64,000 nucleotides of DNA from Demequina aurantiaca (lineage in GTDB: Bacteria; Actinomycetota; Actinomycetes; Actinomycetales; Demequinaceae): NCBI RefSeq assembly GCF_000975135.1, contig NZ_BBRF01000002.1, positions 310,001-374,000 on the forward strand, read 5' to 3'. Shown here one piece after another: positions 6,048-10,900 of this stretch (position 1 is its first letter; each line of letters begins with the position of its first letter). A program made the translations under genes and the position numbers. The notes under the pieces are model-generated. The model searched no databases. It had not been told where the DNA came from and was given only the letters and a program-made list of their open reading frames with translations.

Positions 6048-7253
6048 TTAGTCCTTGGCCGCGTCTTTAGCGGGCAGGGCGAGCATGCGGTCTAGCGCGA
6101 CCTTAGCCTGCTCCTGTGTCTGAGCGTCCACGGTGACCTGGTTGGGCACGTCTCCGGCGACCAGTGACTCAAGCGCCCACACCAGGTGTGGAAGATCGAT
6201 GCGGTTCATGGTGGAGCAGAAGCACACAGTGTCTTCGAGGAACATGATCTGCTTGTCCGGGTGGGCGTTCGCGAGGCGACGCACCAGGTTGAGTTCGGTG
6301 CCGATCACCCATGCGGAGCCGGGCTCGGCTGCGTCGAGTGTCTTGATAATGAACTCGGTGGAGCCCACGTAGTCCGCGCTCGTGACTACCTCGTGGGTGC
6401 ACTCGGGGTGAACCAGCACGTTGATGCCGGGCACCTGCTCGCGAGCTGCGTCGACGTTGGTCTTGCGGAAGCGGCCGTGCACGGAGCAGTGGCCCTTCCA
6501 CAGGATGACCCGAGCGGCGGCGAGCTCCTCGGCGGTGTTGCCGCCAAGTGGCTTGCGGGGATCGTAGACCACGCAGTCCTCGAGGCTGAGTCCCAGTTGC
6601 AGGACTGCAGTATTGCGCCCCAGGTGCTGATCTGGCATGAACAGCACCTTGCCGGTGCCATCTACTCCGCCGACCTGGTCGAAGGCCCAACGCATCGCGA
6701 CTTCGGCATTCGAGGACGTGCAGACCACGCCGCCGTTGCGACCACAGAATGCCTTGATCGCCGCGGTCGAGTTCATATAGGTCACGGGCACGGTCTGTTC
6801 GGCCACGCCCGCCTCAGCGAGTTGCTCCCACGCGTCCTCGACCTGGTTGATGTTCGCCATATCCGCCATTGAGCAGCCGGCCGCCATGTCGGGCAGGATC
6901 ACCGCCTGTGACGAGTCGGTGAGTACGTCCGCGCTTTCGGCCATGAAGTGCACGCCACAGAAGACGATGAATTCGGCTGCGGGGCGAGCAGCCGCGTCGC
7001 GCGCGAGTTTGAAGGAGTCACCGGTCACGTCGGCGAACTGGATGACTTCGTCACGCTGATAGTGGTGGCCGAGGACGAATACGCGTTCGCCGAGTGCCTC
7101 CTTGGCCGCGGTTGCGCGCGCCACCAGGTTCGGGTCGGACGGCTCAGGCAGGTCTCCAGGGCAGTCCACGCCGCGCTCGGACATCGGATCGCGGCGGCCT
7201 CCGAGGAGCAGCAGCGCCGGCGAATCGGACGGTTCGGTGAACGTCGAAGTCAT
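6048..7253 (-). CDS. nadA: Quinolinate synthase
   Basis: Condenses iminoaspartate with dihydroxyacetone phosphate to quinolinate for NAD synthesis. The 401-residue protein contains VLGHHYQRDEVIQFAD, FCGVHFMAESADVL with the first cluster Cys, the GHCSVHGRF block, PECTHEVV, and DTVCFCSTMNRI near the C-terminus, consistent with a [4Fe-4S] NadA. No nadB or nadC is adjacent, so the rest of the pathway must be encoded elsewhere. CACAAT on the minus strand (7260-7265) lies 6 nt before the ATG. DUF3043 follows on the same strand. Confidence 0.95.
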   Translation of the reverse strand: MTSTFTEPSDSPALLLLGGRRDPMSERGVDCPGDLPEPSDPNLVARATAAKEALGERVFVLGHHYQRDEVIQFADVTGDSFKLARDAAARPAAEFIVFCGVHFMAESADVLTDSSQAVILPDMAAGCSMADMANINQVEDAWEQLAEAGVAEQTVPVTYMNSTAAIKAFCGRNGGVVCTSSNAEVAMRWAFDQVGGVDGTGKVLFMPDQHLGRNTAVLQLGLSLEDCVVYDPRKPLGGNTAEELAAARVILWKGHCSVHGRFRKTNVDAAREQVPGINVLVHPECTHEVVTSADYVGSTEFIIKTLDAAEPGSAWVIGTELNLVRRLANAHPDKQIMFLEDTVCFCSTMNRIDLPHLVWALESLVAGDVPNQVTVDAQTQEQAKVALDRMLALPAKDAAKD

Positions 7254-7293
7254 TCGTCCATTGTGTCACGATCCGCAGGGCACACTAGTGTCC
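7254..7293. promoter_or_regulatory. 40-bp divergent promoter region nadA / glycerate-kinase-like gene
   Basis: Minus strand CACAAT (7260-7265) ends 6 nt before nadA; plus strand CACACT (7281-7286) ends 7 nt before the ATG at 7294. Both look like weak -10 boxes of leaderless transcripts. A perfect CACTAGTG palindrome (7283-7290) overlaps the plus-strand box. Confidence 0.4.
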
Positions 7294-8328
7294 ATGCGTG
7301 TAGTGATGGTGTGCCAAGAATGGGATGGGAACGGACCCTTTTCGGTTCCCGCGGATTCGGCACAGGAGATTTCGCTGCTGGCCTGGGGTACGGCCGCCCC
7401 TCACGTCGATGTCCATGCCTTCGCGATCGGGGACGGCGGACCACGTTCGGCCGATGCTGTAGCGGGGTCTCGTTCCCGCGTGGGCGGAGTCGAGCTGGTC
7501 GCCTGGGATGCGACCCTCGACGGTGGTGCTGTGATGGCCGCACCTCGGGGTACCGAGACGCGCTGGAACCCGCTCGATCTCGCGTCGGGGCTCATGGGTC
7601 TAGCAGCCGAGGCTCGTCGTGGGGGCAGACGCCAGACGGTGGTGGTTCCCGTCGGCAATGGAGACTGTGCGGGGGACGCCACCGGCTTGTGGGGCGTAGG
7701 AGCGTCGTTGGCGCAAAACGTCGCCGCAATGCGATCAACGCTCGATGTGCTGGACATCGTGGTGCTGACCACTACAGATCGACCGCTGCTGGGTTTTCAC
7801 GGCATGAGCTCGGCGCTGCGCGACGGACGCGAGTCCGATGCAGCAGTGTCCGTCGCGGCTCAGGCGCAGGAGGAACGCTGGACTGCCATCGCCCGTGAGA
7901 TCGATGCAGAGGTATCACGGCCCATGCTGCTCGGTGCGAACAGGCTGTCCGATCAGGCGGGCACCGGAGCCGCGACGGGGCTTGCGTACTGCCTTGCCGC
8001 TGTCGGAGGGCGACTGGTGACCGACGCCGCCGGATACCTCATGGACGCCGTGGGGGTAACGGCGGCCATCGGTGACGACGTGACCGTGGTGGTGGCCCTG
8101 GCCCCCACGCTGACCCCCACGACCCTCGACCATGGAGTCGCCAGCTCATTGGCCCGGACAGCATCGGCCGCCGCCGTTCCAGTCGTTGCTGTTGCCCCGG
8201 AAGTTCACGTCGGAAAGCGTGACCTTATGGCTGCTGGAGTCGCTGCCGCCTATGAGGCGGGGCACGGCGAGAACGCGCTTGGGGATCAGATTCGTCGCGT
8301 CGCACAGACCTGGACGCGGCTCGACTGA
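7294..8328 (+). CDS. Glycerate-kinase-like protein, divergent
   Basis: 344 residues, weakly resembling the GlxK/GckA glycerate kinase fold. It shows TRWNPLDLASGLMGLA, VVVPVGNGDCAGDATG in the position of the family GIGGSATNDGG loop, and TGAATGLAYCLAAVGGRL. The usual N-terminal ADGGEGT motif is not recognisable and the central loop is altered, so catalysis is uncertain. Position supports orthology: in mycobacteria a glycerate-kinase-annotated gene (Rv2205c) sits next to the HesB/ErpA gene, as here. The ATG at 7294 was chosen over an upstream in-frame ATG inside nadA. Confidence 0.65.
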   Translation: MRVVMVCQEWDGNGPFSVPADSAQEISLLAWGTAAPHVDVHAFAIGDGGPRSADAVAGSRSRVGGVELVAWDATLDGGAVMAAPRGTETRWNPLDLASGLMGLAAEARRGGRRQTVVVPVGNGDCAGDATGLWGVGASLAQNVAAMRSTLDVLDIVVLTTTDRPLLGFHGMSSALRDGRESDAAVSVAAQAQEERWTAIAREIDAEVSRPMLLGANRLSDQAGTGAATGLAYCLAAVGGRLVTDAAGYLMDAVGVTAAIGDDVTVVVALAPTLTPTTLDHGVASSLARTASAAAVPVVAVAPEVHVGKRDLMAAGVAAAYEAGHGENALGDQIRRVAQTWTRLD

Positions 8329-8428: not shown

Positions 8429-8782
8429 ATGACTGATACCGCGACCGAGAACGCCACGCATGGAGTGGTCATTACCGACGGCGCCGCCAGCAAGGTAAAG
8501 AGCCTGTTGGAGCAAGAAGGCCGTGACGACCTCAACCTGCGCCTCGCGGTGCAGCCTGGTGGTTGCTCTGGCCTGATCTACCAGCTCTACTTTGACGAGC
8601 GCACGCTTGACGGTGACGTCCGCATGGAGTTTGACGGCGTGGGAGTTGTCGTTGACAAGATGTCGGTTCCGTATCTTGACGGTGCGACCATCGACTTTGC
8701 CGACACGATCGAGAAGCAGGGCTTCACGATTGACAACCCCAATGCTTCGAGTTCCTGCGCGTGCGGAGACTCCTTCAGTTAA
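8429..8782 (+). CDS. erpA: Iron-sulfur cluster insertion protein, A-type carrier
   Basis: 117-residue HesB/IscA/ErpA family protein that delivers Fe-S clusters to apoproteins. It has the three conserved cysteines in GGCSGLIY and the C-terminal SCACGDSFS. It starts at an ATG with an excellent upstream AGAGGAG. It lies beside nadA, acnA-type and respiratory Fe-S clients (Rieske, quinolinate synthase) in the wider region, so it may serve them; that link is contextual inference. Confidence 0.95.
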   Translation: MTDTATENATHGVVITDGAASKVKSLLEQEGRDDLNLRLAVQPGGCSGLIYQLYFDERTLDGDVRMEFDGVGVVVDKMSVPYLDGATIDFADTIEKQGFTIDNPNASSSCACGDSFS

Positions 8783-8864: not shown

Positions 8865-9995
8865 CTACGAGCCCAGTACCCCCATGTCGGATTTCACGTC
8901 AGCGATCACTCGCGGCAGGACGCCGATGAAGCGGCGCACATCAGCGTGAGTCACACCAGGGTGCAAACCGATGCGGAGGTTGCCGTGGGTCAGCGCTCCC
9001 ATCACCTCGAGTACGCGACTGGGCTCGAAGGTCGCCTTCCCACAAGCGGATCCCGAGCCGACGGCAATGCCCGCACGGTCGAGACGCGACACGAGCGGTT
9101 CGCCGTCCAGATAGAGGAACGCGGCAGTAAGAACGTGGGGGAGTCGTTCCTCGGAGTCGCCGATGACGGTCACGTCCTCGAGGCCGTCGATGGCCGTGCG
9201 AATCTCGTCGATGTACGAACTGAGACGCGTCGCGGTGCGCTCCCGCTCCTCAACACGCTCCTGAAGCGCCACCGCTGCGGCGAGCGCGAGCGGAACGGAG
9301 ATGCCGCCAGGTGCCCACGGGTCACCATCGGGCCATGCTTGCAACCATCGCGTCTGTGGACGCAGCGCTACCACTCCGAGGCCAGCGGGGCCACCCCAAT
9401 CCGCGGGGTTCGCCACGAGGGCATCCCAATGCTGCGGAGATTCGATGTGACCGATGCTGGCGGTCGCATCCACGACCAATGGCACCGAGTGATGTGAAGT
9501 CACCGCCGCGACATCCGTTAGTCGCTGGACCGTTGCGACCTCATGATTTGCGTGCTGAACCGCGGCCATCGCGGTCGCGGGGTCGCTGGTGAATGCGGAG
9601 AGGGCATCGAGATCGAGGTGACCGAGCCTGTCGACGGGGACGAGATCAACCTCGCCTTTGGTTGCGAAGGTCGCGGCGTCAAGCATCGCATCGCGTTCAA
9701 TCGCCGAGGCGACGATGCGGTCGCGTCCTCGTCGCGCCGAACAGATGCCAGTCACCACTCGCTCAAAGCCAAGACTGACCGAGGCCGTGAAGTGCAAATA
9801 CTCGCTCTGAGTACCGATCACATCCGCGATCGCGCCGCGGGCACCGTCCACGAGTGCGCGGGCTCGTCGGGATTCGACGTGAAGGCGATTGGGGTCAGCC
9901 CAACCGTCGGCAAAACCGACTCGCAGGGCATCGGTGACGCGGGGTGTAAGGGGCGCGGAACCGCTTGCATCCAGAAACATGCGGGTGTCTGACAT
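8865..9995 (-). CDS. Cysteine-desulfurase-like protein lacking the PLP lysine
   Basis: 376 residues, class V aminotransferase fold of the NifS/IscS type, beginning FLDASGSAPL. It keeps N150 (HANHEVATVQ), D176 and the mobile-loop C318 in GSGSACGK. The position of the Schiff-base Lys is occupied by D199 (NPADWGGPAG where IscS has SSHKIYGPKG), the catalytic His of the EH pair is R101, the Gln after D176 is Ala, and the GATE-like phosphate loop is absent. It is therefore probably not a PLP desulfurase. The ATG lies 6 nt after TAACGT (10002-10007, minus strand). It is divergent from ctaC and convergent with erpA. Confidence 0.85.
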   Translation of the reverse strand: MSDTRMFLDASGSAPLTPRVTDALRVGFADGWADPNRLHVESRRARALVDGARGAIADVIGTQSEYLHFTASVSLGFERVVTGICSARRGRDRIVASAIERDAMLDAATFATKGEVDLVPVDRLGHLDLDALSAFTSDPATAMAAVQHANHEVATVQRLTDVAAVTSHHSVPLVVDATASIGHIESPQHWDALVANPADWGGPAGLGVVALRPQTRWLQAWPDGDPWAPGGISVPLALAAAVALQERVEERERTATRLSSYIDEIRTAIDGLEDVTVIGDSEERLPHVLTAAFLYLDGEPLVSRLDRAGIAVGSGSACGKATFEPSRVLEVMGALTHGNLRIGLHPGVTHADVRRFIGVLPRVIADVKSDMGVLGS

Positions 9996-10027
9996 GCCCT
10001 CACGTTATCGCGCGCTAGACTGACCGC
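9996..10027. promoter_or_regulatory. 32-bp divergent leaderless promoters (desulfurase-like / ctaC)
   Basis: Minus strand TAACGT (10002-10007) ends 6 nt before the desulfurase-like ATG. Plus strand TAGACT (10016-10021) ends 6 nt before the ctaC GTG. The two genes must share most promoter DNA, so their transcription is probably linked or mutually exclusive. Confidence 0.55.
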
Positions 10028-10900
10028 GTGTCCAAAGTAACTCGTCCCAGAACACTTCGTTATGCCCTTGGCGCAACTGGTGCAGTAGCGGTGATGCTCC
10101 TGCTCTCAGGCTGTGTGGAGGGTATTGAGAACGGCGCGCTGCCAAGCACGCCGGACGTCACAAACCAAACCGGTCGCATCATCACTCTGTGGAATGGGTC
10201 GTGGATTGCGGCCCTTGCCGTCGGTGTGCTGACGTGGGGTCTCATCCTGTGGTGCGTTGCGGTGTACCGCAAGCGCAAGGGTGACTCCAAGCTGCCGCTA
10301 CAGACTCGCGCCAACGTGCCGCTTGAGCTCATGTACACGGTGGTACCGCTGATGCTTATTGGGGTGCTGTTCAAGTTCACCGCGCAGGACATCAGCGCGA
10401 TACGCGACACATCGGAGACTCCGGATGTCACGATCCAGGTGATCGGAAAGCAGTGGAGTTGGGACTTCAATTACGTGGACGACAACGTCTACACCGCAGG
10501 CGTGCAGGCGACGCTGACCGGTGAGACCGGCGTCGAGGAGACTCTCCCCACGCTCTACCTGCCCGTCAACGAGCGTGTCGAGTTCATCCTGAACTCCCGT
10601 GACGTGATCCACTCCTTCTGGATTCCGGCGTTCCTCTATAAGGAGGACACGATTCCCGGCCGCACCAACAGTTTCCAGGTGATTCCCACTCAGACGGGCA
10701 CGTACAAGGGCAAGTGTGCTGAGCTTTGCGGCGAGTACCACGCGTCCATGCTGTTCAACGTCGAGGTGGTGGAGCGCGACGAGTACGACGCATACATTCA
10801 GGAACTGCGCGACGAAGGCTACGAGGGCCAGATCGGTCTGGAATACAGCCGTGACCAGGTCGTCAAGATGACCCAGGACCACGAGGAGACCCACGAATAA
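10028..10900 (+). CDS. ctaC: Cytochrome c oxidase subunit II (lipoprotein)
   Basis: 290-residue CuA-bearing subunit of the aa3 oxidase. An N-terminal lipoprotein signal ends at LLLSGC (C29). Two membrane helices follow (about 53-73 and 97-117), then an extracytoplasmic cupredoxin domain with the aromatic WSWDFNY patch, IHSFWIPAF and the CuA ligands in [12 protein letters not shown]. The GTG start gives a leaderless mRNA (TAGACT 6 nt upstream). The stop overlaps the ctaD ATG as TAATG, so subunits I and II are translationally coupled. Confidence 0.97.

Follow-up and report, generated by a model that had tools for sequence, protein, structure and literature searches.

What can a protein with the fold of a cysteine desulfurase do once the lysine that anchors its PLP cofactor has been replaced? 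The question is raised by a gene of Demequina aurantiaca located in a stretch of 64,000 nucleotides (positions 310,001 to 374,000 of contig NZ_BBRF01000002.1; hereafter the window, from whose first letter all coordinates are counted). Automatic annotation would be likely to label such proteins as desulfurases, given that the window's member matches aminotransferase-V and desulfurase-type models alone, and if the Lys-less members free no sulfur, pathway reconstructions would be wrong in the class of this common family. Loss of the anchor, together with a strictly kept loop cysteine and the retained cysteine of TusA, the product of a frequent neighbouring gene, amounts to a natural experiment on whether the scaffold docks, relays or ligates besides its chemistry; an archaeal precedent poses the same question in another domain.

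Fold and cofactor site of the window protein

The gene lies on the minus strand, starts with ATG and encodes 376 amino acids in an unbroken frame. The features of the locus are the following.

10028..10900, plus strand: ctaC, cytochrome c oxidase subunit II, divergent upstream neighbour (COX2, PF00116)
9996..10027, no strand: divergent intergenic region shared with ctaC, 32 bp, conserved in the genus (columns and motif, 39 genus rows)
8865..9995, minus strand: Lys-less NifS/IscS-fold pseudo-desulfurase, 376 aa (ORF list, Pfam, NCBIfam, AF2 model, Foldseek, VIA-align)
9759..9791, minus strand: degenerate phosphate-binding loop, residues 69-79 (alignment)
9693..9695, minus strand: codon of Arg101, replacing the catalytic, PLP-stacking His (alignment; role as for His104 of E. 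coli IscS, PMC9978102)
9459..9461, minus strand: codon of Ala179, replacing the Gln that bonds PLP O3' (alignment; role as for Gln183 of E. coli IscS, PMC9978102)
9399..9401, minus strand: codon of Asp199 (GAT), replacing the Schiff-base Lys (alignments; aligns with the Asp of Archaeoglobus fulgidus IscS, PDB 4eb5)
9042..9044, minus strand: codon of Cys318 (TGT), the loop cysteine, kept (alignment)
8973..8975, minus strand: codon of Arg341, kept, counterpart of Arg354 in E. coli IscS, which binds the substrate carboxylate (alignment; PMC9978102)
8783..8864, no strand: short gap where many relatives have tusA, with none in the window (TusA profile scan)
8429..8782, plus strand: erpA, A-type Fe-S carrier, convergent downstream neighbour (PF01521)

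The protein has been found to match solely aminotransferase-V and desulfurase-type models of Pfam and NCBIfam. The Pfam match is Aminotran_5 (E 1.2e-28), and the best NCBIfam model is NifS, for which its 159 bits fall well short of the cut-off of 530.75, a threshold also missed by the canonical NifS of the same genome (368 bits); the IscS model gives 115.1 bits against a cut-off of 643.2. An AF2 model (mean pLDDT 87.9), built from a 20-sequence alignment whose 13 desulfurase-like rows make it lean to that fold, has the IscS-like architecture of fold type I. In VIA-align comparisons this model superposes on E. coli IscS (3lvj/3lvm) with a Z of 45.5 and 2.1-2.2 Å over 368 residues, in a tie with human NFS1 (Z 45.8), and on A. 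fulgidus IscS with a Z of 44.2-44.3. One of the closest folds is the IscS-TusA complex 3lvj, and Foldseek agrees on IscS-type desulfurases. The same relatives are recovered by sequence comparison alone, the best match in the PDB being A. fulgidus IscS (4eb5, E 7.8e-39).

Within this scaffold, a sequence-only reading of the window had reported that D199 stands for the Lys, R101 for the His and A179 for the Gln, and that the phosphate loop is gone while the C318 loop is kept, all of which has been borne out by the alignments. Asp199 is followed directly by W200, residues 176-179 read D176-A177-T178-A179, and the phosphate loop reads FTASVSLG, versus FTSG[AG]TEA in most canonical rows; the loop GSGSACG, which carries Cys318, is intact. 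The roles of the corresponding His, Asp, Gln, Lys, Cys and Arg residues in E. coli IscS have been described (PMC9978102). Judging from model and alignment, the window protein appears to share with class I desulfurases (NifS, IscS, NFS1) the whole fold, the Cys loop, Asp176, Asn150 and Arg341, and differs from them in lacking the Schiff-base Lys, the catalytic His, the Gln and the phosphate loop. Since the covalent anchor and most other PLP contacts are lost, it should not be able to cleave cysteine.

Extent of the family and history of the lysine loss

The relatives were collected with a profile made from 22 Lys-less rows (A1). By its score the window protein, itself one of those rows, belongs to the ctaC/erpA-linked NifS-TusA family. 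In the window's order, the family comprises 104 matches of at least 304 bits in 103 of 396 genomes; the next block, at 230 bits or less, holds the canonical NifS rows that were read. At the class level the profile is matched by 200 of 394 sampled genomes (E 1e-75), and at the phylum level by 51 of 296 (1e-70), where weaker matches grade into canonical NifS. Sequences were read for 82 of the 104 order-level matches, for 62 of the 194 matched genomes of the class outside the order, and for 20 of 40 in other classes. Among them, Lys-less rows number 93 in the window's order (f1, f5, f9, f12, f15, f17 and f18, where f-codes are families of the genome search and f1 rows belong to the window's genus) and 22 elsewhere (f40, f41, f44, f50, f51, f54 and f57). 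Outside the order, 20 of the 26 sampled families of the class have Lys rows, with SAHKWGGP or a similar motif, and f54 holds both types. These Lys-bearing NifS proteins of other actinobacterial families belong to the same family as the window protein and often have tusA, ctaC and erpA at their locus; they have kept the Lys, whereas the window protein has lost it and its genome has lost tusA.

Active-site residues were read in 168 family rows, 53 with the Lys and 115, including the window's, without it (excluded from row counts: L001, the window; L032, L043, L044 and L047, duplicates; L055-L059, own-genome searches). The Lys site is occupied by Asp in 73 of the 115 and by Ser in 24, other residues making up the remainder. 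Eight positions are conserved in at least 95% of the Lys-bearing rows and in less than 70% of the Lys-less ones, namely G73, T74, H101, V104, S196, K199, L209 and L224 (in this count f62, f63, f76, f102, f103 and two f95 rows were classed as canonical, though the tree puts f95 within the family). Five of the eight are PLP-site positions, namely the His, the Lys, the phosphate-loop positions and the Ser. The His and the Lys are given as PLP-site residues in PMC9978102. The loss is graded, since the His is still found in 28 and the phosphate Thr in 31 of the 115 Lys-less rows, and the window protein has neither. On the other hand, Cys318 is present in all 53 Lys-bearing rows and in every one of the 113 Lys-less rows long enough to include it (two stop earlier, at contig ends), among them all 38 without tusA; Arg341 is likewise kept in 113 of 113, Asn150, Glu152 and Gln157 each in 115 of 115, and Asp176, which bonds the ring nitrogen of PLP, in 112 of 115. 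This last retention is odd if PLP never binds. Within the Lys-less rows, columns 291-294, 323 and 337 vary with the presence of tusA, a difference confounded by kinship.

Chance, a local mutation or a sequencing error has been rejected as the origin of the Asp. D199 is present in all 38 other genus rows read, including the closest named gene, that of D. oxidasica (91% identity), and between the latter and the window gene the dN/dS is 0.047 at a dS of 1.02. For the same pair of genomes the values are 0.013 for ctaC, 0.025 for erpA, 0.016 for nadA and 0.083 for a glycerate-kinase-type ORF, so the pseudo-desulfurase gene is under constraint, albeit a weaker one than that on its best-kept neighbours. 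No internal stops have been found in 37 genus matches of the family, one of which runs past its contig end. The homologue alignment thus upholds the view, taken earlier from the sequence, of an intact and conserved pseudo-enzyme in which the Lys-to-Asp change, genus-wide in the rows read, is always accompanied by the Cys. The same reading would have taken Lys retention by relatives with an identical neighbourhood as a sign of a local mutation. Such relatives do exist, because the Lys is kept beside ctaC and erpA in other families, but the loss covers whole families of the window's order, and it is therefore an old change under selection.

The number of losses has been approached with two trees. 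Parsimony on a 158-row tree gives at least eight changes at the Lys site, counted without direction, one of them being that of A. fulgidus IscS, and a more careful 42-row tree gives six. In the latter, all ten rows from the window's order fall into a single clade without the Lys (support 90/96). A long-branched row that has the Lys (L109, f56) is placed among Lys-less rows. A topology that unites every Lys-less actinobacterial row in one clade is not rejected (p 0.198), so that several losses among them are likely rather than proven. A common origin with A. fulgidus IscS, which groups with canonical IscS, is rejected (AU p 1.75e-35), and the archaeal and bacterial losses are therefore independent.

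Gene neighbourhood and the TusA link

The window gene lies between ctaC and erpA, as is characteristic of the family; its position opposite the former and next to the latter, noted at the outset, has been confirmed by Pfam matches of the neighbours and by locus comparison. Among Lys-less loci, 112 of 115 have ctaC divergent and no more than 700 bp upstream, and 92 have erpA convergent and downstream, with 20 further loci having too little flank. Among 49 Lys-bearing loci, ctaC is found in 33 (11 without, 5 lacking flank) and erpA in 35 (12 with too little flank); the Lys-bearing rows from other classes are without ctaC. The Fe-S enzyme gene nadA is frequently next in the neighbourhood and is close by in the window too. 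A role in copper-centre assembly, also put forward from the sequence, has nothing behind it except the ctaC neighbour.

Two side observations concern the flanks. In the 32 bp of 9996-10027, all 39 genus rows have CGCG in columns 16-19 and two TA steps, and further columns are invariant as well; the pattern looks as if two back-to-back -10 elements might produce near-leaderless transcripts, though kinship adds to the conservation. At 7102-8328, a glycerate-kinase-family ORF adjoins erpA and is present in most genus loci with modest identity.

The most recurrent partner gene is tusA, detected by a profile scan. Of the 115 Lys-less loci, 75 have it next to, overlapping with or fused to the gene, 38 are without it and 2 are cut off; in 74 of the 75 its product retains the CPxP cysteine. 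Among the 53 Lys-bearing rows, tusA is adjacent or fused in 42, 1-1.5 kb away in 3 and absent in 8. The loci tagged as fused comprise three true Lys-less fusions (L085, L118 and L124) and five overlapping starts; Pfam confirms the NifS-TusA fusion in L085 and L118, as well as in the Lys-bearing L070, and the TusA profile supports L124. The CPxP motif is intact in the TusA domains of all three Lys-less fusions. The association is common among Lys-less loci rather than strict, and the window locus has no tusA. Within the genus, 18 loci have the gene, 20 (including the window) do not, and one is cut off. A search for TusA in the whole genome of the window (G000) gave no matches, while such a match exists in 31 of the 37 searched genomes of the genus, located at the same locus or within a long ORF of about 490-950 aa.

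Other sulfur genes are present in the window's genome. It encodes a canonical NifS, with a nearby gene that resembles mnmA by eye, and SufS beside SufU; the sufU gene, on another contig, is the single NifU_N-type match.

Possible functions of the Lys-less protein

The reading to which we give about an even chance sees the window protein as a pseudo-desulfurase that carries no PLP and works, by way of Cys318, as a sulfur relay or dock. Its ancestor would have been a Lys-bearing NifS encoded beside tusA, erpA and ctaC; selection maintains the reading frame, the mobile Cys318 loop and the carboxylate-binding Arg341. Cys318 would receive a persulfide (sulfane sulfur) from another source, be it SufS, the canonical NifS or a small-molecule persulfide, and the sulfur would be held there or handed to an acceptor docked at the site that TusA uses on IscS. 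TusA, encoded next door or fused, would be this acceptor in most Lys-less relatives. In the E. coli relay, the loop Cys of IscS meets the TusA Cys, and the two sulfurs of the docked proteins are about 4 Å apart (PMC2854127). For this reason a Lys-less protein beside an intact TusA would most simply still receive sulfur and pass it on, or hold TusA. The likeness is a proposed one, and it differs in one respect, because E. coli IscS forms its own persulfide using PLP and the window protein should not. Against the relay or dock stand the 38 Lys-less loci without tusA and the TusA-free result for the window's own genome, where a replacement acceptor would be needed, with ErpA and SufU as candidates. 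The graded loss of the cofactor site and the retained Asp176 also count against it, as does A. fulgidus IscS, drawn with PLP bound in a figure legend of PMC9769115 despite having no Lys; loss of the Lys alone is therefore no proof of PLP absence. The Cys-based carrier or Fe-S scaffold suggested by the sequence-only reading survives as the best class of explanation, favoured by the tusA gene of relatives and by the A. fulgidus precedent, while its exact mechanism is conjectural. TusA, the archaeal precedent and the kept Arg341 lay beyond the reach of that reading.

A bolder version, which we regard as unlikely, is a PLP-free sulfurtransferase built on the desulfurase scaffold, perhaps more than once. 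Here a small persulfide, for instance cysteine persulfide, would be gripped by its carboxylate at Arg341, and Cys318 would take the outer sulfur without a cofactor and deliver it to TusA or, in lineages that have lost TusA, to a newly recruited acceptor, for example ErpA. If true, it would mean that old desulfurases have been converted into cofactor-free carriers of sulfane sulfur.

The main rival of the relay or dock is possible, if somewhat improbable. It holds that Cys318 serves as a ligand to a [2Fe-2S] cluster on SufU or ErpA and that the protein supplies no sulfur, in the manner of A. fulgidus IscS. The latter has Lys199 replaced by Asp, has been reported to be without desulfurase activity, and lends a Cys as ligand to the [2Fe-2S] cluster that IscU carries (PMC7585200; PMC9769115; original papers listed as Marinoni 2012, Yamanaka 2013 and Pagnier 2014); it is represented in the PDB by 4eb5 and 4hvk, and by a D199K mutant, 4r5f, confirmed by its title. 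Like the window protein, it has lost the Gln and retained the loop Cys, and with erpA adjoining and nadA close by, the window locus has an Fe-S setting that fits such a role. The resemblance has limits, since A. fulgidus IscS has retained both His and phosphate loop and carries Leu at the Arg341 site, the reverse of the window protein, and it lies on an independent branch. Moreover, the recurring partner of the window's family is TusA, present in many relatives and lacking in the window's genome, and not IscU, and the only candidate for a dedicated partner of the A. fulgidus type in that genome is sufU beside sufS, on another contig. IscS1 of Methanosarcina acetivorans, also without the Lys (PMC7585200), shares this absence with the window protein, a likeness drawn from its description and not from its sequence. 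A Lys-less IscS with a useful Cys is thus already known in archaea. What appears to be new in print, as far as the open-access literature searched goes, is a bacterial family of this kind, with TusA as partner, a deeper loss of the cofactor site in which the Arg is kept, and the absence of TusA in one lineage; titles and abstract openings of that literature yielded no publication on the Lys-less actinobacterial family.

Less probable is a regulatory or structural pseudo-subunit, which would pair with the canonical NifS or SufS, or sequester an acceptor, and use Cys318 for binding instead of chemistry. Serine palmitoyltransferase offers a parallel, in that its LCB1 subunit, which has no such Lys, is paired with LCB2. 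Mixed dimers would be possible in principle, as cysteine desulfurases form homodimers (PMC8300815), and both NifS and SufS occur in the same genome; however, the window protein is only 26-29% identical to its own NifS, and docking needs less than the strict conservation of Cys318 and Arg341.

A cryptic enzyme that binds PLP non-covalently and still carries out slow desulfuration or another reaction seems very improbable. The data on the K206A mutant of E. coli IscS have been read by their authors as a reaction at a very low rate (PMC9978102). Asp176, Asn150 and Arg341 are moreover retained. However, the window protein also lacks the His, the Gln and the phosphate Thr, and H104, Q183 and K206 are termed indispensable in E. 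coli IscS (PMC9978102). Finally, a decaying relic, to which the lost Lys and the absence of tusA in the window's lineage might point, is hardly credible in view of the low dN/dS at a dS near one, the stop-free genus matches and the strict Cys318.

Two minor observations lie outside this argument. Twelve canonical-type NifS homologues (L203-L214) come from IMG/VR contigs catalogued as viral, which may be host DNA. In genome G186, a second Lys-less copy (L092) that is not near ctaC has the unusual loop VGCGCTCG, and beside it lies a TusA-like frame without its own cysteine (GLGNPTTF).
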